A stretch of 64,000 bases of DNA from Lusitaniella coriacea LEGE 07157 (lineage in GTDB: Bacteria; Cyanobacteriota; Cyanobacteriia; Cyanobacteriales; Spirulinaceae), in the NCBI RefSeq assembly GCF_015207425.1, contig NZ_JADEWZ010000004.1:1-64000 (forward strand). The letters run 5' to 3'. The translations under genes were made by a program, and so were the position numbers. This document shows positions 7,163 to 16,875 of this stretch, in pieces. The notes below the pieces were generated by a model, which was given only the letters and a program-made list of their open reading frames with translations, ran no database searches and was not told the DNA's origin. The first letter of the stretch is position 1. Each line of letters begins with the position of its first letter.

Positions 7163-7999
7163 ATGTATCAAAAAGCCTACGGAATCATCGAAACCCTTGC
7201 CCCCCTTCATGTGGGAGCCAGTGCGGGGGAGGAGACGGGAAATCTTAACCTAATTTTCCGCGACCAATTTACCCAAACGGGGATTATTCCTGGAAGTTCG
7301 ATTCGCGGTCGATTCCGGGCCGATATGCGTTCTCATGATGCCGACAAAACGAACCATTGGTACGGACACGAAGCCATTGCGGGACAAACAGATGGCGGTA
7401 CGACCGAAGCACTGGTGAAATTTGAGTACGCCTCCCTCGTTTGGCTGCCTGTCTTTTGTCCGGGGCAACCGGTGGTCTGGGTAAGTTGTCCGCGCCTGCT
7501 CAAGCGCTACAAACAAATTTCCGGGATTGATGCAAGTATTCCCAAACCCTACACTGCATCGCCCTCGCTGGTGGGGCGCAATATTGGCAACAACCAAACG
7601 GTTTTGTTCTTCAATCTGGGCTTTCTCGCGATCGAGCATAAGGTAGACCTCTCCCCTTGGATTCCCGCAGGCGCAGATTTATCGGCCGAAAATTTGGTGG
7701 TAGTAGCAGACAACGATATTGCCATGCTGCACGATATGGCACTGTACCGTCAGAGTCGGGTGTCCCTCGAACCTAACCAGAAGAAAGCCAAACAGGGTGC
7801 GTTTTTTGATGTGGAAGCACTGCCGGAAGGAAGCGTTTTGGTGTTTCCTGTCGCTCTCAAAGAGTCAGGATGGCAGCCCTTTGGCGAGATGCTGACAGAA
7901 GACCTGTATTTCGGCGGTTTGGAATCCATCGGCTTCGGTCGCTGCCGCGTCACCTTGGCAGGTCAATATTTTGCAAAAACAGTTGCAGTTAGCGCATAG
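7163..7999 (+). CDS. cmr4: Cmr4-like Cas7 backbone subunit, type III-B
   Basis: A 278-residue RAMP protein. The N-terminal LHVGASAGEETG is followed by the typical glycine loop IIPGSSIRGRFR (about 41-52). Later the Cmr4-type block DIAMLHDMALYRQSRVSLEP and FDVEALPEGSVLVFPV is present. In type III-B complexes Cmr4 forms the crRNA-binding filament and cuts target RNA at 6-nt intervals. The loop that normally carries the cleavage Asp reads GNLNLIFRD, and my alignment places Asn29 at that position. It is followed by the small-subunit gene after 20 bp. The family call is firm; activity is uncertain. Confidence 0.88.
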   Translation: MYQKAYGIIETLAPLHVGASAGEETGNLNLIFRDQFTQTGIIPGSSIRGRFRADMRSHDADKTNHWYGHEAIAGQTDGGTTEALVKFEYASLVWLPVFCPGQPVVWVSCPRLLKRYKQISGIDASIPKPYTASPSLVGRNIGNNQTVLFFNLGFLAIEHKVDLSPWIPAGADLSAENLVVVADNDIAMLHDMALYRQSRVSLEPNQKKAKQGAFFDVEALPEGSVLVFPVALKESGWQPFGEMLTEDLYFGGLESIGFGRCRVTLAGQYFAKTVAVSA

Positions 8000-8019: not shown

Positions 8020-8421
8020 ATGGGATGGCAATATTACGGTTTAGATCGAGCAGCACAGAAATTGGTGCTGGATGCCAAAGCGCGCGATCGCCAATCGCTC
8101 AATCAAGCCTTTAAAATGCGCGAAGCCGTTGCCTACGGACTCGAACGGTTCTGGGGCGAACATTTGCGCTTGCAAGCCAAGGAAGCTGAAAAATCCCAAT
8201 ACTGGAAAGAAACGTGGGACGTGTTAGTACAACTCATGAACAGTGCGGGAGTCAAGATTCCCAACGATCTGGTGAATGCCAACCAAACTCAGCAAGTGAC
8301 CGCAATGGCAGAGAAACTGTGGAAAATGAGTTTAGAAGACCAGCGCGTGGCGATGGCAGTTCTAGCGCAGTTGTGCGATTGTCTTGTTTGGTGGACGCAG
8401 CGGTATAAGGGAGAAAAATAG
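8020..8421 (+). CDS. Small subunit (Cmr5/Cas11-like)
   Basis: A 133-residue, probably all-helical protein with many Gln, Ala and Trp residues, for example QAFKMREAVAYGLERFW and VAMAVLAQLCDCLVWW. Size, predicted helical content and position just after cmr4 fit the Cmr5/Cas11 small subunit, which lines the belly of the complex and contacts target RNA. No strict sequence motif defines the family, so the call rests partly on context. A purine-rich Shine-Dalgarno (AAGGAG) lies about 12 nt before its ATG. It converges on vapC with a 4-bp gap. Confidence 0.65.
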   Translation: MGWQYYGLDRAAQKLVLDAKARDRQSLNQAFKMREAVAYGLERFWGEHLRLQAKEAEKSQYWKETWDVLVQLMNSAGVKIPNDLVNANQTQQVTAMAEKLWKMSLEDQRVAMAVLAQLCDCLVWWTQRYKGEK

Positions 8422-8425
8422 CGAA

Positions 8426-8869
8426 TTATACTGTTGCCGGATCGACTGCGATAATTCCTTCGCTTGCATAACGAGTGAAATCTGTTGTATTGAACGTCAG
8501 AATATGCGTCGTGCTGTTAACTTTCATAGCCGCGATCAAATGAGCATCGTGAACTTGAACGCCCGAAACGCCATAATTTATAACGAGTCTGCGCCACTCG
8601 GTATAGACTGTCGGACTATCTGGCAAAACTGGAAAGAGGCGTTCGAGCAAGCTCAACAATTGCTCCGCGTTAGCAGGAGTCAAACCCAAGCCATTTCGGG
8701 CAATCGGTCGCGTTGCCACATTCCAGAACTCAATACAGTTTTGCGGTGCAATGCGCAGTTGGTGTTTGTCTCGTCTCAGTTGACGCATTGCGTTTCGCAC
8801 GATCGGGTGTTGAGGATCGCTGCGATTGGTCAAGCGAAGTAAAACGTTAGTATCGACAAGATAGAACAC
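8426..8869 (-). CDS. VapC-type PIN-domain toxin
   Basis: A 147-residue PIN-domain ribonuclease. The four acidic positions of the family are visible: D6 (LVDTNVLL), E47 (NCIEFWN), D108 (VHDAHLIA) and D130 (FNTTDF). Such toxins cut tRNA or other RNAs until bound by their antitoxin. It lies 3 bp downstream of its antitoxin gene on the minus strand, inside the plus-strand cmr gene row between the small subunit and the cmr6-like gene. It is intact by length and active-site residues. Confidence 0.87.
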   Translation of the reverse strand: MFYLVDTNVLLRLTNRSDPQHPIVRNAMRQLRRDKHQLRIAPQNCIEFWNVATRPIARNGLGLTPANAEQLLSLLERLFPVLPDSPTVYTEWRRLVINYGVSGVQVHDAHLIAAMKVNSTTHILTFNTTDFTRYASEGIIAVDPATV

Positions 8870-8872
8870 AAC

Positions 8873-9160
8873 TTATAGACGTTCTTCATAAATCCCTGCA
8901 CGGCTGATGCCATAGTCCGATAAGACGGGGGGATGAGATGGAAAGTATGTGGCAAACCGGTCGGCTAATCGATCGGCAAAAGTTTCAAATTGACTCTCAT
9001 TTTCAACGGCGCGATCGCGTTCCCGATCTAATAACACTTCCACCGTCGGCGCGAAAGCTGCAACGAGCAATTGACTGATTCCTTCGCGATCGCGACGAGC
9101 AATGTACGAGCGGAGTTTTACCTCCTGTTCGGGAGACAATTCCAGTGTCACGGTCATCAT
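8873..9160 (-). CDS. VapB-type antitoxin
   Basis: A 95-residue partner for the PIN toxin. The N-terminal MTVTLELSPEQEVKLRSYIARR is a strand followed by a helix, fitting a ribbon-helix-helix-like dimerisation region. The acidic C-terminus (about 55-95) would wrap the toxin. The pair forms a two-gene operon, antitoxin first. Its start is 52 bp from the divergent cmr6-like ATG, so both promoters must share that short gap, and autorepression of the pair could also affect the CRISPR gene. The antitoxin family is not certain from sequence alone. Confidence 0.7.
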   Translation of the reverse strand: MMTVTLELSPEQEVKLRSYIARRDREGISQLLVAAFAPTVEVLLDRERDRAVENESQFETFADRLADRFATYFPSHPPVLSDYGISRAGIYEERL

Positions 9161-9212: not shown

Positions 9213-10889
9213 ATGACTGAAATTCCCAATGCAGCCCAAAAAGTCCCGATGATGTTTCGGGCGCAAACCGCAGGACGCTGCCAGTTACAGCGCATTGCGC
9301 GAGATGCCGAGTCGGATGTGGAACGCTGGACGGACGAATGGACAGATCGCGCTCATCCCGTTCCCTCATCCTCTCCCCAGAATATCCAAACAAAAACCTA
9401 CACCCTAAGCTGGCGCTTTGTCACCAACGGCGGACAGGATGATGGCATCATTCGCCCGGTTATCGGTGCGTTTGGACTCCCTTACTATCCTGGAAGCAGC
9501 ATGAAAGGGGTATTTCGCCGGGTTTGTACGCCCCAACAAGCCGATCGCTATTGCGGCAAGAAATTGACCGGAGGCGACTTTGAACCGGGAATTCTGCGCT
9601 TTCACGGCGGCTATCCCACGGATGATCGCTGGCAAGAGGGGTTGGTGGATATCGTTCACCCCCAGCAAAACTGGCAGGTTAAGAGCGATCGCAAAGATGG
9701 GGGCGCATTTGCCCTGATTTCTCTCTACAAACCCACCCTGCGATTTGGCATTTCCAGCACCAAACCGGAAAAAACGGACTGGGAAGAAGTGTGGGAACTT
9801 TGGGAGCGCGCGATCGCGCAGGGGTTAGGTTGTCGCGTCTGTGCCGGATACGGGCAACCCAGCGAAGTTCAAGGCAAGCGCTTGTATCGCTGTACCCTCA
9901 AAGGACAGGGAGCCGCCCCCAAATTATTGAATGACGAAGGCGAGTTTCGTCCCAACGTCTTTCGCGCCTCGGTACGGGGTCATGCCTTGCGGATTTTTGG
10001 TGGGTTGTGTCAGCCTCGCGACGCAGAGGACTTGGTGCAAACCCTGTTTGGTGGTGTCAAAGGAAACGCCACCGTTGGCTTGCTAGCGATGAACTTTCGT
10101 GATACCCGCTTGAGCGTGCAGGACTACGGAACCGATCCCTACGCCGTTCCCGCCTATCAAGTGGAAGGACAGCTTAACTGGCTGCTGACTCGCGAACTGC
10201 CCTCGGAAGAAAAAGAGGTGCTAATTGCGTTGATGAGAAGCTTAATGCGTTTTTCGATGCTTTTGGGCGGTTTTGGCAAGTCTTGGCGCAGGACAGACCA
10301 CAGACTCTTCTATCCGGAATATTACGAAGGGAGACAATCGAAAGCGCTAATTGGCTGTCACTGGCAGTGGACGGATAGATCTTTAATGTACGACAGTCGG
10401 GTACGCAAATTGGAGCAGGTTGGGCAGTTTATCGACGATGTGCGGAAGGCGGCGAAAACCTGGATGGAAATTCAAGGGGTTGCCGTTCATAATTCCTATG
10501 CAACGGGGTGGCGAGAAGCGTGGCATCCCGACAAGGTGCAGGTTTGGGGTCGCGAAGCGGAAGATGATGAGGACTGCGAAGCCGTGCGCTGGTTCCACGG
10601 TCCCTATCGGCGAGCGATTCGAGAGGCGAGAATTCCTGAAGGATCGATTTATAGAACCTCAGTTGCCGGAAGCATGAATCAAGTGGGTCGCCTGTGGCAT
10701 CGGATGTATCCGGTGGTGCGGTTGGTGAAAGACCCCAAAAATCCGAAAAAGCCGATCGCGAAAAAGACACGACGCTTTTTAGAGTTGCTGACGTTTTTTC
10801 CCAATGGAACGCCAGAATCCGATGCATTTTTAACGTTCTTGGAGTCGGAACAGCAGGAGTTTCAAAAACTTTGGATCGCGGAGGATTAA
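9213..10889 (+). CDS. Double-RAMP protein, Cmr6-like N-half and Cmr1-like C-half
   Basis: A 558-residue CRISPR RAMP protein, about twice the length of a single Cmr6. Residues about 60-225 resemble Cmr6: GLPYYPGSSMKGVFRR (88-103), then LVDIVHPQ and GCRVCAGYG. Residues about 245-370 begin a second RAMP unit, FRASVRGHALRIFGG, LFGGVKGNATVGLL and LLGGFGKSWRR, which resembles Cmr1. If right, one polypeptide supplies both end subunits of the complex. It is preceded by the divergent VapBC pair and followed, after an R1 repeat copy, by the CARF gene. RAMP membership is firm; the Cmr6/Cmr1 split is my inference. Confidence 0.75.
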   Translation: MTEIPNAAQKVPMMFRAQTAGRCQLQRIARDAESDVERWTDEWTDRAHPVPSSSPQNIQTKTYTLSWRFVTNGGQDDGIIRPVIGAFGLPYYPGSSMKGVFRRVCTPQQADRYCGKKLTGGDFEPGILRFHGGYPTDDRWQEGLVDIVHPQQNWQVKSDRKDGGAFALISLYKPTLRFGISSTKPEKTDWEEVWELWERAIAQGLGCRVCAGYGQPSEVQGKRLYRCTLKGQGAAPKLLNDEGEFRPNVFRASVRGHALRIFGGLCQPRDAEDLVQTLFGGVKGNATVGLLAMNFRDTRLSVQDYGTDPYAVPAYQVEGQLNWLLTRELPSEEKEVLIALMRSLMRFSMLLGGFGKSWRRTDHRLFYPEYYEGRQSKALIGCHWQWTDRSLMYDSRVRKLEQVGQFIDDVRKAAKTWMEIQGVAVHNSYATGWREAWHPDKVQVWGREAEDDEDCEAVRWFHGPYRRAIREARIPEGSIYRTSVAGSMNQVGRLWHRMYPVVRLVKDPKNPKKPIAKKTRRFLELLTFFPNGTPESDAFLTFLESEQQEFQKLWIAED

Positions 10890-10903: not shown

Positions 10904-10960
10904 TAGTTAAGATTGACACGGAGAAGTTTTGACAATGGGCAATTTGAAGGATTTGATATG
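10904..10960. repeat. Dispersed repeat R1, copy 2 (right half), supplies start of CARF gene
   Basis: Partial copy: GATTGACACGGAG, then CAATGGGCAATTTGAAGGAT and TTGATATG. The terminal ATG is the start codon used for the CARF gene, and GAAGGA 6 nt before it acts as the ribosome-binding site. The same repeat end does the same job at 16875. Confidence 0.75.
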
Positions 10961-12178
10961 AAAAAATGGAATTCTCATCCCAAACACACCTTAATTTGCA
11001 CGGTAGGAACGAGTCTGTTTTATCCCAATCTAATCGGTCTGCCTTCTCCTGAGAATTACGAGCCTTGGTTAAACAAACAACCTTCCCAAGATCGAGCCTA
11101 TTTATCGCCCGAATTTGTTGAAATGCTCAAAACAAATTGGACTGAATTTCAACAACACTCCGCAGAAACTATTGCTTTACAGGAAATCGCGCGATCGCTA
11201 ACGCAATTGCCGGGAACAACGCGGTTGTGCGGTGCAGAAATTAACTCCATTGCCGACCTTATTACGCGAGAATATTGTACGTCAAACTGCAAGCTGTATT
11301 TTTGTCATTCGGCAACCGAATCCGGACGCAACATCGCTAATATTCTCGTGCATTACTATCGCAGGAACGATCGCGCGGTTGTTACTCACGAAATCGAAGA
11401 TTTGCAAGATGACGATCCTAAACGTTTCCGCACCAAAGGATTGCGCAATTTAGCGAAAACAATCGGTCAAATCGTCAGAGAAAGCGGTTCTGAGTTTTGT
11501 GCGATCAATGCCACAGGTGGCTATAAAGCTCAAATCGCGATCGCGGTTTTGATGGGTCAAGCTTTGGGAATCCCCGTCTACTACAAGCACGAACGGTTCA
11601 GCGAAATCGTCGCTTTTCCCCCAATGCCCATTAGTTTGGACTTTGAGTTATGGCAGCACAATAGCGGACTCTTAGAAGCCCTGCAACGCAATGACGTTCT
11701 CAATTGGGATGATTTTGCGGAAGATTGGGATGAAAAAATGGAAGTGATGGTCGAACGAGTTGAGGTTGACGGTCAAATTTATATCGAACTTTCTCCCACC
11801 GGACAAATTTTTCACGACACGTTTAAAAATCGCTTTGATGCCAGTAAAAATGAATATTTACCCCCTCCCATTGACCCACCTCGGAAAATAAAACCGTCCC
11901 TAACAGACCACGGTTGGGGAAATGCTAGAGAACCAATTCTCAACTTTTTACAAACCATTACCGACCAATGTCCTTACGTTCGCCAGTGTAGAACGCACTA
12001 TTGGAATCCTGACTTATCGCAAGCGACCCGTTTTCGATTGCAAAGCGAGCAAATTGAAGGGATTTTTAGCAATGGCAGTTGGACGGTTAAATTCTATGTA
12101 GATACATCGGCAAATACCTCCGGTCAACGTGCTGCTTGTATTGCCGATCTCAACCAACGATTGGCAAACTGGATTTAA
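10958..12178 (+). CDS. CRISPR-associated CARF protein, SSO1393/APE2256-like, with C-terminal effector-like extension
   Basis: A 406-residue protein. Residues 1-235 form a CARF domain of the SSO1393-like type: strand and nucleotide loop TLICTVGTSL (11-20), NATGGYKAQIAIAVLMGQ (184-201), then PVYYKHERFSEIVAFPPMPI (206-225). Relatives bind cyclic oligoadenylate, and some are ring nucleases. Residues about 235-293 look like a winged helix (IELSPTGQIFHDTF). Residues about 315-406 are a further domain that might be RelE-like; an R-x4-H motif (R342-H347) also fits a HEPN nuclease. ATG 10958 was chosen over TTG 10913 because the earlier codons are repeat-derived. A terminator follows. Confidence 0.8.
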   Translation: MKKWNSHPKHTLICTVGTSLFYPNLIGLPSPENYEPWLNKQPSQDRAYLSPEFVEMLKTNWTEFQQHSAETIALQEIARSLTQLPGTTRLCGAEINSIADLITREYCTSNCKLYFCHSATESGRNIANILVHYYRRNDRAVVTHEIEDLQDDDPKRFRTKGLRNLAKTIGQIVRESGSEFCAINATGGYKAQIAIAVLMGQALGIPVYYKHERFSEIVAFPPMPISLDFELWQHNSGLLEALQRNDVLNWDDFAEDWDEKMEVMVERVEVDGQIYIELSPTGQIFHDTFKNRFDASKNEYLPPPIDPPRKIKPSLTDHGWGNAREPILNFLQTITDQCPYVRQCRTHYWNPDLSQATRFRLQSEQIEGIFSNGSWTVKFYVDTSANTSGQRAACIADLNQRLANWI

Positions 12179-12257: not shown

Positions 12258-12590
12258 TGAAAAAATTAATCCGATTTAACCCAATCGGTAGGGTAGCCGC
12301 TTACGGAATTGTCGCGTTAAAAGCATTAGTTTCCAACTAATCCGATTTAACCCAATCGGTAGGGGAGGCTGAAAGCTTCAACTGATAGCTACTCTCATCT
12401 CCTCCCCCAGTTTCCAACTAATCCGATTTAACCCAATCGGTAGGGGTTACGGTCGCTTTTGGACCTTACGATTCCTTAGACCGTTTCCAACTAATCCGAT
12501 TTAACCCAATCGGTAGGGGACGCTGTACTCCGATAAGACTGTGGGACCTTACAAGTTTCCAACTAATCCGATTTAACCCAATCGGTAGGG
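12258..12590 (-). CRISPR. CRISPR array, five 36-bp repeats and four spacers
   Basis: Repeats at 12258-12293 (degenerate), 12329-12364, 12410-12445, 12483-12518 and 12555-12590. On the plus strand they begin GTTTCCAACT and end CAATCGGTAGGG; the last four are identical. Spacers are 35, 45, 37 and 36 bp. On the minus strand each repeat ends GTTGGAAAC, like the crRNA 5' tag of many type III repeats, and contains the hairpin CCGATT-GGGTTA-AATCGG. The leftmost repeat has lost its first nine plus-strand bases, which is its 3' end on the minus strand. This marks the trailer end, so the array is read right to left. Confidence 0.95.
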
Positions 12591-13088
12591 TGTTTAGTCT
12601 GGGATACCAGACAGGGCAGGGGTTTTGAGCGCCGATTTCACGCACCCCTGGCGGGTAGTATAGATCGAGCCTGCACAAAGGGCAACCGATCGCCCTCAAA
12701 TCCATGTCCCATATAGAGTACACGCAGGTCAACGAAAGAATGAGGGTTTCGGCGATTGGCTGGGGTGCGCGAACAGAGGCAAAAATTGAGCATTGACTCC
12801 CTAAAACACCTTTCCGATAAGAGATAAAGCGATTTTTAGAATATTTATTTTCAATCAAAAAGCGCTCCGCGCACCTCTGGAGAATAAAAAGCGAAATCCG
12901 AGGGATTTGGGAGCGCCAGGAGAAGAAATCAGTCGAGATCGATCGACCCTGAAGACATTCAAAGTTCGGTAGGATAAGGATTACAAGCATATTAAGCCAA
13001 CTCGATTTGGGGCATCGACACCCGTCTGAGGGGTTAGAAAGGGGGATTTCCATAACCTGATAGCTTGGAGAAAGAACGAAGAAATGTA
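12591..13088. other. CRISPR leader and regulator-upstream region
   Basis: About 500 bp without a gene. The part next to the array holds the array promoter. Further out lies a segment around 12860-12885 with the minus-strand sequence AGAGGTGCGCGGAGCGC. A similar G-G-T-G-C-G-C-G stretch occurs in other cyanobacterial CRISPR leaders as I remember them. Near 13065-13088 GGAGAAAGAACGAAG remains from what I take to be the original upstream region of the WYL regulator gene. A long minus-strand frame crosses this DNA and the array and is not a gene. Confidence 0.6.
12657..12685 (-). promoter_or_regulatory. CRISPR array promoter
   Basis: On the minus strand TTGCCC (12680-12685), a 17-bp spacer and TATACT (12657-12662). 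Transcription would start near 12650, about 60 nt before the first repeat at 12590. Orientation agrees with the repeat polarity and the degenerate distal repeat. Confidence 0.7.
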
Positions 13089-13413: not shown

Positions 13414-14937
13414 ATGTCCGATTTTGTTTTTGACTATCCCCCCAGCATCGAACTGCTGCAATGGTTGGCGAAACTGTCCTTGCGACAAACCGACGTACTG
13501 CCGATGGCGATTCGCTTGTGGGTTATCTTGCGTTCGCTCTACGGCAACAGCGATGACCCCGTATATCTCGAAGGTTTGAACAATTGCTTTGGCTATTCCG
13601 AGTGGCGCGACCTCTTTTTTCTCGACATCGATTCCCACCATCAGCGCGATCGCGTGGCTCTCCTCCACAACCCCAACTGTCCTTGCAGCAAAACCATTAC
13701 CGATTGGCTCTTCGACCCAGAAACCGGAATCCCGCAACACCAATGGCAAGAAGACTTCACCCAACATTATTCCCCCTCTGCTGCCGAAATGGATCGGGCG
13801 TTGAACCCCACCAATTGGCTCTACGACCCCAATAGAGGATGCACTGAAGCCCAATGGCGACAGGCTTTACAACAGCGCTATCAATTGTCTGAAGGCGAAC
13901 TCAAAACCCTGACGCGCGTCGTTCAGCATCCAGAACGGGAACGCCATAGAAATCGTCCCTTCGCCGTTTCTCGCAAAACCCTCAAAAAAGACCTCAAAAC
14001 CCTCGTTTCCCTGGGATGGTTAAGTGCAGAAGGCTATCGATATCGCAAAGTTGCAGAATTTCCCCCAGTGGCAATTTCCAACCAAACGGTCGTTCTCGCA
14101 CCCTTCGATTTTGGTGTTGCCGGACAATTTATTCAATCTGACTTGGCGGATTTTGTCGATAAATTTGCATCGCCGATTAATGGAGTTCGCCGTTTCTTTC
14201 TCCAGGTTGAATACATTATTCCCGGACAGCTCTACAGTCATATCGAGCAACTGCAAAACCAACTCAAACGCCTTTGGAGTCAAACCCCCGTTCCTCCCGT
14301 TCGCCTTGTCTATCGCAGCGCGAAATTGTACCAAGACGAGGTGGAGCGCGTGGTGTATCCCGTTTGTATTTGCTACTTTCAACGCGCGCCTTACCTTTTT
14401 GCTTACGGTCAAACTCCCAGCGACGAATCGCAGTTGAACTGGTACGATTATCGCCTCGACCGCATTCAAGGTTTGCAGCTATTGTCTTGGGACGCTCCCG
14501 ATATTCCCCCACCGTTGCGCTCTTGGGAAAAAAAGCCAATTCCCCCGGAAAAAATCTCGGAATGGATGAGCGAAGCGTTGGGGTTTGAGTTTTACAAGCC
14601 GAAAGAGTCGATGCTGTTGCGTTTCGACCGTTATTTTTACGCCAACTATATTGCGGGAACCGAACGGGATACTTTGTTTGAAAAATTGTCCCACCGACAG
14701 GCACTCAGCACGGCGAGAACTGCGGCTCTCTCATCGGGGAATCGACGAATGCTTGAGGCAATTTTGCAATCTCGCTCTCCCCAGGATATTTACTGTCGCG
14801 TCCATTATCGCGCGGGAGACAATAACGCGATTATGCGCTTGCGCGCCTGGGGTCAAAATGTGGAGGTTTTATTGCCGTGGGATTTACGCCAACGGATGCG
14901 TTCGGATTTAGTGGAAAGCAGTCGATGGTATCAATGA
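13414..14937 (+). CDS. WYL-type regulator of CRISPR loci (TIGR03985-like)
   Basis: A 507-residue protein resembling the cyanobacterial TIGR03985 family found beside CRISPR loci. An N-terminal region (about 1-165) contains two similar units, TITDWLFDPETGIPQHQW and NPTNWLYDPNRGCTEAQW. A helix-turn-helix-like part follows (RPFAVSRKTLKKDLKTLVSLGWL, about 174-200). The C-terminal half is WYL-like, with FDFGVAGQFIQSDLADF, YRLDRIQGLQLL and a final basic WYL-extension. Such proteins repress CRISPR transcription in Synechocystis. The start ATG abuts the MITE-like element, so the original upstream region is displaced. It overlaps the HD gene by ATGA. Confidence 0.75.
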   Translation: MSDFVFDYPPSIELLQWLAKLSLRQTDVLPMAIRLWVILRSLYGNSDDPVYLEGLNNCFGYSEWRDLFFLDIDSHHQRDRVALLHNPNCPCSKTITDWLFDPETGIPQHQWQEDFTQHYSPSAAEMDRALNPTNWLYDPNRGCTEAQWRQALQQRYQLSEGELKTLTRVVQHPERERHRNRPFAVSRKTLKKDLKTLVSLGWLSAEGYRYRKVAEFPPVAISNQTVVLAPFDFGVAGQFIQSDLADFVDKFASPINGVRRFFLQVEYIIPGQLYSHIEQLQNQLKRLWSQTPVPPVRLVYRSAKLYQDEVERVVYPVCICYFQRAPYLFAYGQTPSDESQLNWYDYRLDRIQGLQLLSWDAPDIPPPLRSWEKKPIPPEKISEWMSEALGFEFYKPKESMLLRFDRYFYANYIAGTERDTLFEKLSHRQALSTARTAALSSGNRRMLEAILQSRSPQDIYCRVHYRAGDNNAIMRLRAWGQNVEVLLPWDLRQRMRSDLVESSRWYQ

Positions 14938-15521
14938 ATGCGAAACCGTTTAAATTGACCCGGCGCTTTGAGACAGCTTTAACCTATACCCATCAACTGC
15001 ACGCCGGACAGGTACGAAAAGGTAGTGACGTTCCCTATATTGCTCACTTGTTGAGCGTTGCGGCGCTGGTTCTTGAAGATGGCGGCAATGAGGATGAGGC
15101 GATCGCGGCATTGCTTCACGATGCAGTCGAAGATTGCGGGGGAATGGAGATATTGCAGGAAATTCGTCGGCGATTTGGCGATCGCGTGGCGCAAATTGTT
15201 GAAGGGTGTACCGAATCGGAAATTATTCCCAAACCCCCTTGGCGAGAGCGTAAGGAGCGCTATCTCCAACAGTTGCGTTGCGGTTCTCCTTCGGTTTATC
15301 GCGTCGCGATCGCGGATAAACTCCATAACGCGCGATCGACCCTCATGGACTATCGCCGCCAGGGAGATGCGGTTTGGCAGAAGTTCAAAGGGGGGAAAGA
15401 AGGAACCCTCTGGTTTTATCGCGCGGTTCTCGCCATCCCACCCCCAAGCGCCCATGTGCTTGCAGAGGAACTGGCGCGGGTTGTTGGGGAATTGAGCGAA
15501 AATTATATGAAATCCGGTTGA
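14934..15521 (+). CDS. HD-domain hydrolase of RelA/SpoT (MESH1-like) type
   Basis: A 195-residue protein. HD-fold landmarks are THQLHAGQVRKGSDVPYIAH (19-38), LLHDAVEDCGG (60-70, with H62-D63 and E66-D67) and VAIADKLHNARST, supplying the metal ligands H38, H62, D63 and the distal Asp. The layout matches stand-alone (p)ppGpp hydrolases, but the typical G-V-T-D loop reads GCTESE, so the substrate may differ. It has no synthetase domain. The start at 14934 makes an ATGA overlap with the WYL stop, implying translational coupling. The last codons (NYMKSG) lie in an R1 repeat copy. Alarmone or another CRISPR-related nucleotide are both possible substrates. Confidence 0.75.
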   Translation: MNAKPFKLTRRFETALTYTHQLHAGQVRKGSDVPYIAHLLSVAALVLEDGGNEDEAIAALLHDAVEDCGGMEILQEIRRRFGDRVAQIVEGCTESEIIPKPPWRERKERYLQQLRCGSPSVYRVAIADKLHNARSTLMDYRRQGDAVWQKFKGGKEGTLWFYRAVLAIPPPSAHVLAEELARVVGELSENYMKSG

Positions 15522-15570: not shown

Positions 15571-16875
15571 TTAAGGGGATTCTTCCGATCGCGATCGAGC
15601 TAATTTTTGCGCTATCAAATCGACTAAAATTCGAGCGAGGGCTTGGATTGTGGGACGAGAAGAGGTTTCTTGAGAGCGATCTAAGTGGTGAACGCTGCCG
15701 ATGAGGAGGGGAGATTCCCGTTCGATAGAATCGCGCGTCCCGTGATAATCGCTGTAGAGAATGGCGATGACCCGAAGGTGGAGTTCGTCGCAAAAGGCCT
15801 GCCACTCTTTGACTTCGGCTTCCGTGTTCGCTAAAATCACCGCTTGGGTTGCCCGATCCATAATGATGCGATTTTCCGGGGAAGTTTTGCCCCCCACATC
15901 AAACACCAAAATTGAATTTTTAATGACTTCGACCTCTTTTGCTTTTTTGTCGGCAAACTCCGGGGTGAAGTTGGCTTTGTATTCGTCCTTTAATTGGCGG
16001 GCAAATTCAGGATTTCTTCGAGCGGTTTCTGAAAACCAAGACCCGTCGCCGTCGGGACAGCCGGAAATGACATAGGAATCGGGGGCATTGGGGGTTTTGA
16101 GGAGCGCTTGCTTGAGTCCTTCGCGCAGGCAGGTTTTTCCGGTGTTGGGGGGACCGCAAAGGACGACTTTGATATTTTGGAGGGGTGAGCATGGCACGTC
16201 GATGGTGTCTCCGACGCGATAGGTGCTGTGGGAGATGACGACGACATATTTATCGAGTCCCGATTCGCCGAGTTTGGGGTCGTAAACCGCGATCGCGCCG
16301 TACAAATGAGCGACCTGTTGGGCAATGACAAAACTCCCCAGGACGGAAAAGCGTCCGTTAATCAGCAGGGGTTTTCTGCCGCCTTTCAATTGCCCTCTGG
16401 CAATGAGCGTCTGTAATTGCGCCTTTGTTTCCACCACAACGCGATCTCCCGGCACGGAAACGTCGCCGTTGAATTGGGGTTGGAGAATGTCTCCGTCCCA
16501 GTCTAAGCGCACCGCAGGCGTGTCCTCTAAGGAGGGGGAGTAGGGGATAACCCGACCCGTTTCCCGCTCGATTCGACTGCCGAAGGGGTAATTGGGGGTA
16601 TTGCTGGTAACGACGACGTAGGCATTTAAGCGGGGTTCGGAAACCGCGATCGCGCTGTATAAATGCCCCAGTTCGTGAGCCATAACATAGCTGACCAACA
16701 GCGATTGACGACCGTCAATTTTCAGCAGTTTCCCGCCGGGAAGTTGCCCTGATTCAATTGATGCCTGCAATTGCTCCATTGCATCGCAGACGACGCGATC
16801 GCCCTCAGCAGGAACTTCTGGATTAAAGCAAACGTTCAGGGTGTCTCCGTTCGGGGTGATGATGTAACTGGTCAT
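15571..16875 (-). CDS. csx3: Tandem Csx3 (ring-nuclease type) domains fused to a P-loop ATPase
   Basis: A 434-residue protein. Two Csx3-like units occupy about 10-100 and 125-225, each with a linker ending GGKLLKIDGR or GGRKPLLINGR, a helix, then HLYSAIAVSEPRL (71-83) or HLYGAIAVYDPKL (190-202), a YVVV strand and a VG-containing end. Csx3 (Crn3) degrades cyclic tetra-adenylate. H190 and D199 keep the nine-residue spacing I recall for its catalytic pair, while the first unit has H71 but E80. Residues 241-248 are Walker A (GPPNTGKT) and ILVFDVGG (322-329) resembles Walker B. ATG 16875 was chosen because it follows an R1-derived ribosome site; upstream codons are repeat. Confidence 0.82.
   Translation of the reverse strand: MTSYIITPNGDTLNVCFNPEVPAEGDRVVCDAMEQLQASIESGQLPGGKLLKIDGRQSLLVSYVMAHELGHLYSAIAVSEPRLNAYVVVTSNTPNYPFGSRIERETGRVIPYSPSLEDTPAVRLDWDGDILQPQFNGDVSVPGDRVVVETKAQLQTLIARGQLKGGRKPLLINGRFSVLGSFVIAQQVAHLYGAIAVYDPKLGESGLDKYVVVISHSTYRVGDTIDVPCSPLQNIKVVLCGPPNTGKTCLREGLKQALLKTPNAPDSYVISGCPDGDGSWFSETARRNPEFARQLKDEYKANFTPEFADKKAKEVEVIKNSILVFDVGGKTSPENRIIMDRATQAVILANTEAEVKEWQAFCDELHLRVIAILYSDYHGTRDSIERESPLLIGSVHHLDRSQETSSRPTIQALARILVDLIAQKLARSRSEESP

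Follow-up and report, generated by a model that had tools for sequence, protein, structure and literature searches.

The window, as we call the whole 64,000-nucleotide stretch analyzed here, encodes a protein in which two Csx3 domains stand in tandem ahead of a P-loop NTPase domain. The two Csx3 domains, their paired arrangement in the structural model, the pattern of active site residues, and a type III CRISPR context were all computed in this work. The preferred reading, to which we give about an even chance of being right, is a single-chain asymmetric Csx3 pseudo-dimer that would act as a composite ring nuclease of cyclic tetra-adenylate (cA4) under NTP control. Fusions of Csx3 with an "AAA" domain are already known, and the tandem Csx3 version is a new variant of them. 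PMC7371418, PMC9676260, and PMC12409355 mention the fusion and name its partner AAA or kinase/transferase. A search of the open-licence PMC literature, as far as its text was accessible, found no earlier description of a tandem Csx3, and an earlier account may exist elsewhere.

Table 1. Positions within the window of the tandem Csx3 gene, its domains, and neighboring features
Feature	Position	Strand	Remarks
Csx3-Csx3-NTPase gene	15571..16875	minus	434 aa; ATG at 16875, stop at 15571
Csx3 half 1, residues 1-104	16564..16875	minus	Pfam 27.4 bits; model
Csx3 half 2, residues 121-229	16189..16515	minus	Pfam 21.3 bits; aligns with AfCsx3 structures
SIMIBI-like P-loop NTPase domain, residues 232-425	15601..16182	minus	structure alignment, A1 conservation
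Walker A GPPNTGKT, residues 241-248	16132..16155	minus	read from sequence
cmr4	7163..7999	plus	PADLOC Cmr4 83.4 bits
cmr5	8020..8421	plus	PADLOC 211.3 bits
VapC-like PIN gene and small partner	8426-9160	minus	inside cmr operon, between cmr5 and cmr6
cmr6	9213..10889	plus	PADLOC 732.2 bits
CARF7-DUF2103 protein (Cas_APE2256)	10913..12178	plus	in-frame ATG at 10958 is a possible true start
Short CRISPR array	12258..12597	none	5 repeats, spacing 71-81
WYL regulator, TIGR03985 family	13414..14937	plus	
SpoT/RelA-like HD hydrolase (HD_4)	14877..15521	plus	convergent with the Csx3 gene

An initial annotation made from the nucleotide sequence had placed the gene at 15571-16875; these coordinates are correct, and the gene lies on the minus strand. 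It had also proposed two tandem Csx3 domains, and both were recovered: against Pfam Cas_csx3 (PF09620, cut-off 21 bits), residues 1-107 alone score 27.4 bits and residues 109-228 alone score 21.3 bits, barely above the cut-off. The residues that it singled out (H71, E80, H190, D199, and GPPNTGKT at 241-248) are all found as given. The two halves are 46.5% identical to each other across about 100 aa (E 4e-19). NCBIfam TIGR02579 matches both halves, yet below its equivalog cut-off (36.6 versus 55.4 bits for the whole protein), and the protein is therefore filed as a divergent member of the Csx3 superfamily and not as a Crn3 equivalog. The PADLOC Csx3-AAA profile PDLC01045 matches at 374.6 bits, with its best stretch over half 2 and the NTPase domain (residues 121-418). 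Resemblance to the Csx3-AAA or Csx3-prime proteins typified by PDLC01045 and Slr7080 extends from the half 2 and NTPase match to the type III context and a TIGR03985 WYL gene; the difference is that they have one Csx3 domain and the window protein has two.

AlphaFold models of the protein are confident, both for the whole chain (pLDDT 93.9, pTM 0.87) and for residues 1-232 (pLDDT 95.5, pTM 0.92). Together the two halves align with SAVED domains at Z 7.9-9.9, the best alignment being with Cap5 (Z 9.9, 177 of 232 residues, rmsd 3.9), followed by a viral SAVED ring nuclease (Z 9.6) and CalpL (Z 8.1-8.2); these matches are modest, a best Z of 7-8 being typical for models that have no clear Foldseek match. 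In the Foldseek search with residues 1-232, SAVED chains rank first with a best E of 1.1e-3, and nothing appears at E 0.001 or lower. No SAVED profile was listed for either the full-length protein or its pieces in a Pfam scan run to E 1, in which HMMER's filters discard many matches above about 0.1. Half 2 alone aligns with five AfCsx3 entries (Z 7.1-7.6, rmsd 2.2-2.5, 26-27% identity). For half 1, the matches listed include cA4-bound Cat1 (Z 7.2) and no Csx3 itself; helices and strands follow a similar order in its model. The pseudo-dimer proposed in the initial annotation agrees with the model, where the halves form an intramolecular pair. Because the models are confident and both halves together align with SAVED domains, the modeled pseudo-dimer is a supported interpretation.

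Two known systems help to place this arrangement. The window protein shares with Crn3/Csx3 of Archaeoglobus fulgidus (AfCsx3; 6yud, 3wzi) the fold of half 2 and the GR, D, and H80 motifs, but AfCsx3 is a homodimer built from two copies of one subunit, each of roughly 110 aa, whereas the window protein consists of two unequal halves in one chain, with Lys for R71 in half 2 and HxxxH in place of HxxH. With the SAVED proteins (Cap4, Cap5, CalpL, TIR-SAVED, viral SAVED) it shares the alignment of both halves along one SAVED chain; the likeness is structural, however, the halves matching Csx3 by sequence. CalpL's SAVED domain and a viral SAVED are described as ring nucleases in PMC11417357 and PMC12751052.

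According to PMC7371418, AfCsx3 requires H60 and D69, which lie on separate faces and come from different dimers; R71, H80, and H57 also contribute, and on the dimer axis H57 and H60 from the two subunits come together, possibly bridged by one metal. The full set of H57, H60, D69, R71, and H80 is absent from each half of the window protein and present across both halves together, with E replacing D in half 1 and K replacing R in half 2. Half 1 has H67, H71, E80, and R82 (in the R71 column) and carries N92 in the H80 column, and half 2 has H190, D199, K201, and H216 and carries Q186 in the H57 column. The second histidine lies four residues after the H57 site here (HxxxH), versus three in AfCsx3 (H60) and classical Csx3, and its counterpart is uncertain by one residue, HMMER pairing it with H61 of AfCsx3 and MAFFT with H60. 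An HExxH metalloprotease was considered and rejected, as HELGH in half 1 (residues 67-71) occupies the Csx3 H57 site and HExxH occurs in only 3/11 tandem half-1 domains (those of the window, L099, and L142); the sole metalloprotease hint was a weak fragilysin match (10.8 versus 190.7 bits).

Loss of the histidines is reciprocal in the eight close tandem proteins. Their first halves keep the H57 equivalent in 8/8 and the H80 equivalent in 0/8, their second halves keep H57 in 0/8 and H80 in 8/8, and the H60 equivalent is kept in both halves of all eight. Across 11 tandem proteins, half 1 has H57 in 9, H60 in 10, and H80 in 1, and half 2 has H57 in 2, H60 in 10, H80 in 10, and D69 in all 11. The exceptions are varied: L129 and the Pseudanabaena galeata protein have instead lost H57 from half 1 and retain the other five histidines, L142 has a complete histidine set in half 2, and L006 has lost all three histidine sites in both halves. 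The R71 site is Arg in 8/11 half-1 domains and Lys in half-2, solo, NTPase-fused, and single domains. The E80 site is Asp in 8/11 of the half-1 domains tallied and Glu in the window protein alone, so E80 is not the defining change.

The tandem form is a minority among relatives. Matches were found in 50/386 genomes sampled across the phylum, some of them confined to the NTPase part, and a scan of named genomes gave 129 relatives, of which the best 80 were kept for architecture counts. Nine of these 80 are tandem Csx3-Csx3-NTPase proteins, so the architecture is neither an assembly artefact nor chance; in 42 loci a solo Csx3 gene precedes one for a Csx3-NTPase, 20 have a single Csx3-NTPase (including L137, which ends at a contig edge), seven have a solo Csx3 and a separate NTPase gene without any Csx3 (L165, L167-L172), and two fall outside the main classes. 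The 42 two-gene loci hold one duplicate, because L136 and L138 are contigs from the same organism and encode identical proteins. Beyond the nine, the tandem architecture is also seen in the window's own protein, in L006, and in a protein encoded by a plasmid of Pseudanabaena galeata; L003, L014, and L016 are identical to three of the nine. In the Argonema antarcticum genome, the solo Csx3 plus NTPase form (L165) coexists with the tandem form (L099). At L159 (9998-11771), an odd array of Csx3 and NTPase fragments, perhaps a decaying duplicate, lies beside an intact Csx3-NTPase gene. No phage homologue was found in 50,697 phage records, and nothing in a viral fold library matched at E 0.001 or lower.

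Histidine loss accompanies a second Csx3 in 45/53 cases, versus 1/19 without one (Fisher 6e-10). This count leaves out L137 at its contig edge, the seven solo-plus-NTPase loci, and L148 and L159, which have no class; adding L021, L023, and Slr7080, Synechocystis-type singles outside the 80, turns 1/19 into 4/22. The NTPase tree requires four changes for the second Csx3 and seven for histidine loss; owing to kinship, no more than 3-4 contrasts are independent, with which a sign test cannot reach significance. L129 stands apart from the main tandem group on this tree, on a long branch of unsure placement; Pseudanabaena galeata is outside the tree. A simple fusion of a solo Csx3 gene with a Csx3-NTPase gene is a candidate origin of the tandem protein; against it, 10/11 half-1 domains form their own set (SH-aLRT 100) separate from solo domains, on a Csx3 domain tree that is poorly resolved (128 columns, 52/140 inner branches open).

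The third domain, called "AAA" in the known fusions, aligns best in its model with SIMIBI-type NTPases rather than AAA+. Residues 233-429 align with 1ion and 1g3q (Z 14.6, 170-171 residues, rmsd 3.6, 14% identity), and the best 50 matches listed comprise MinD, ParA, ApbC, BioD, and similar proteins of the SIMIBI type at Z 14.6-11.8. No AAA+ protein is among the best 50 structure matches listed, an absence compatible with an AAA+ fold, and the Foldseek list also contains a few P-loop kinases. The likeness to SIMIBI NTPases is one of fold; sequence identity is 14%, and GPPNTGKT is missing the early Lys that is characteristic of MinD/ParA. Among Pfam AAA models searched with the whole protein, AAA_18 stayed below its cut-off (13.4 versus 29.4 bits), and for 10 related P-loop domains every Pfam family listed was below cut-off, the nearest being MMR_HSR1 (20.2 versus 21.9). 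K247, D275, and D326 are invariant in 20/20 proteins of alignment A1.

The surroundings carry type III-B genes. The Cmr2 model finds cas10 in this genome only on contig C58 (L054 7476-10996), where cas10 with GGDD adjoins cmr3, and relative L071 has cas10, cmr3, cmr4, cmr5, and cmr6 in a single run that matches both the C58 and the window sets. It is therefore probable that the C58 locus and cmr4-6 of the window form one split III-B system. No Csx1 HEPN effector with PF09455 was found in this genome. The WYL regulator is the sole PF13280 match in the genome at E 0.001. Relatives have a WYL gene in 63/80 loci, divergently upstream in 58 (several contigs being too short to reveal one); the window order differs, with the WYL and HD genes pointing toward the Csx3 gene. 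The SpoT/RelA-like HD_4 gene is a recurrent companion of WYL and Csx3 genes: an HD match is present in 25/42 two-gene loci, and pSYSA of Synechocystis also carries an HD gene. Of three two-gene loci viewed closely, two (L127 and L130) stand at the front of type III-D operons, and that of Nostoc UHCC 0302 stands at the front of a III-A operon.

We infer cA4 as the substrate, together with catalysis, stacking, and NTP control, as follows. Side by side, the two Csx3 domains would correspond, within one chain, to the Csx3 homodimer and to the two-lobed SAVED domain, and two such pseudo-dimer units may stack head to tail around cA4. Each unit would offer a composite histidine face made of H67 and H71 from half 1 and H190 and H216 from half 2, which would meet the Asp/Arg face (E80/R82, D199/K201) of the neighboring unit and cut the cA4 ring, switching off the type III-B alarm. 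Since the halves are unequal, one cut per interface, giving linear A4 first, would be expected rather than two symmetric cuts. The fused SIMIBI-like NTPase probably controls the timing of unit pairing. The reciprocal losses in the close tandem proteins and a genomic Cas10 with GGDD support the composite nuclease; L006 without all sites, Slr7080 without a histidine face, and the shifted histidine spacing speak against it.

The main rival is that the protein is a cA4 sensor or sink and not an enzyme, its Asp/Arg face binding cA4 and the ligand switching an NTPase effector or regulator, with cA4 degradation, where present, done by solo Csx3. We regard this as possible at clearly less than even probability. 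It accords with the way the Asp face outlasts the histidine face: where an NTPase-fused Csx3 has a solo neighbor, it retains D69 and K71 in 42/42 loci and all three histidines in only 6/42 (L136 and L138 both being among the six), the solo Csx3 of the same loci keeps H57, H60, H80, and D69 in 42/42, and single Csx3-NTPases have all three histidines in 18/20. The invariant NTPase residues and the histidine-free L006 and Slr7080 also fit a sensor. A pure binder, however, has no obvious need for the four histidines, two per half, that the eight close relatives all keep. For Slr7080 we took SGL_RS01000 (L174 9001-9933, on pSYSA of Synechocystis PCC 6803), because of its position beside III-B genes; PMC9676260 calls Slr7080 a putative ring-nuclease domain. 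In this protein the three Csx3 histidine sites are occupied by Q, P, and R, and no second matching place is listed on pSYSA, so a Csx3-NTPase can persist lacking the histidine face. As Q, P, and R replace the histidines, the sequence makes it unlikely that Slr7080 cuts cA4 by itself, and the prediction is that it does not cut alone.

The initial annotation had made half 2 catalytic and half 1 mainly a binding scaffold, with E80 marking lost activity. Retention of H190, D199, and H216 in half 2 favors that model, which we nonetheless judge improbable: half 1 keeps H67, H71, and R82, the H57 equivalent is missing from half 2 in 9/11 proteins and kept by half 1 in 9/11, the E80 site is usually Asp, and one half on its own does not make up a catalytic unit given the active site split between dimers in AfCsx3 (PMC7371418). 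Neutral decay following a duplication, with chance deciding which half persisted, would suit the few independent contrasts, but it is unlikely, the losses being reciprocal instead of gathering in a single half and the pattern identical in eight proteins, seven of them 53-59% identical to the window's.

Tentatively, the type III systems of cyanobacteria can be read as holding Csx3 machines in a graded series: one domain, a solo Csx3 with an NTPase, a solo Csx3 with a Csx3-NTPase, and the tandem Csx3-NTPase. Along this series, unequal partners would have come to share out the histidine face and the Asp/cA4-binding face on more than one occasion. The tandem form would be a SAVED-like, single-chain cA4 unit rebuilt out of Csx3 parts, whose sandwich assembly a SIMIBI NTPase switch would gate, making it an NTP-licensed off-switch of CRISPR signalling. 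AfCsx3 activity requires an encounter between two dimers, which makes its rate steeply concentration-dependent (PMC7371418); if the preferred reading is true, a single-chain pair with an NTP switch ties the off-switch of the immune alarm to a second input. It would also provide a model for a two-lobed SAVED-like sensor arising out of a dimer-forming domain, and the natural intact, split, and half-dead Csx3 domains are ready-made variants with which to probe the role of each face.

Two repeated elements were observed in passing. A 25-nt dispersed element has 86 copies in the genome at ≤2 mismatches (0 for a reversed-pattern control), of which those in the window are at 1965, 10934, 16872, 33770, 48514, and 54245; one of these overlaps the Csx3 start codon, and a second terminates at a likely start codon for the CARF gene. 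A 69-nt repeat has three copies, at 890, 18560, and 25714, the second 88% and the third 77% like the first.
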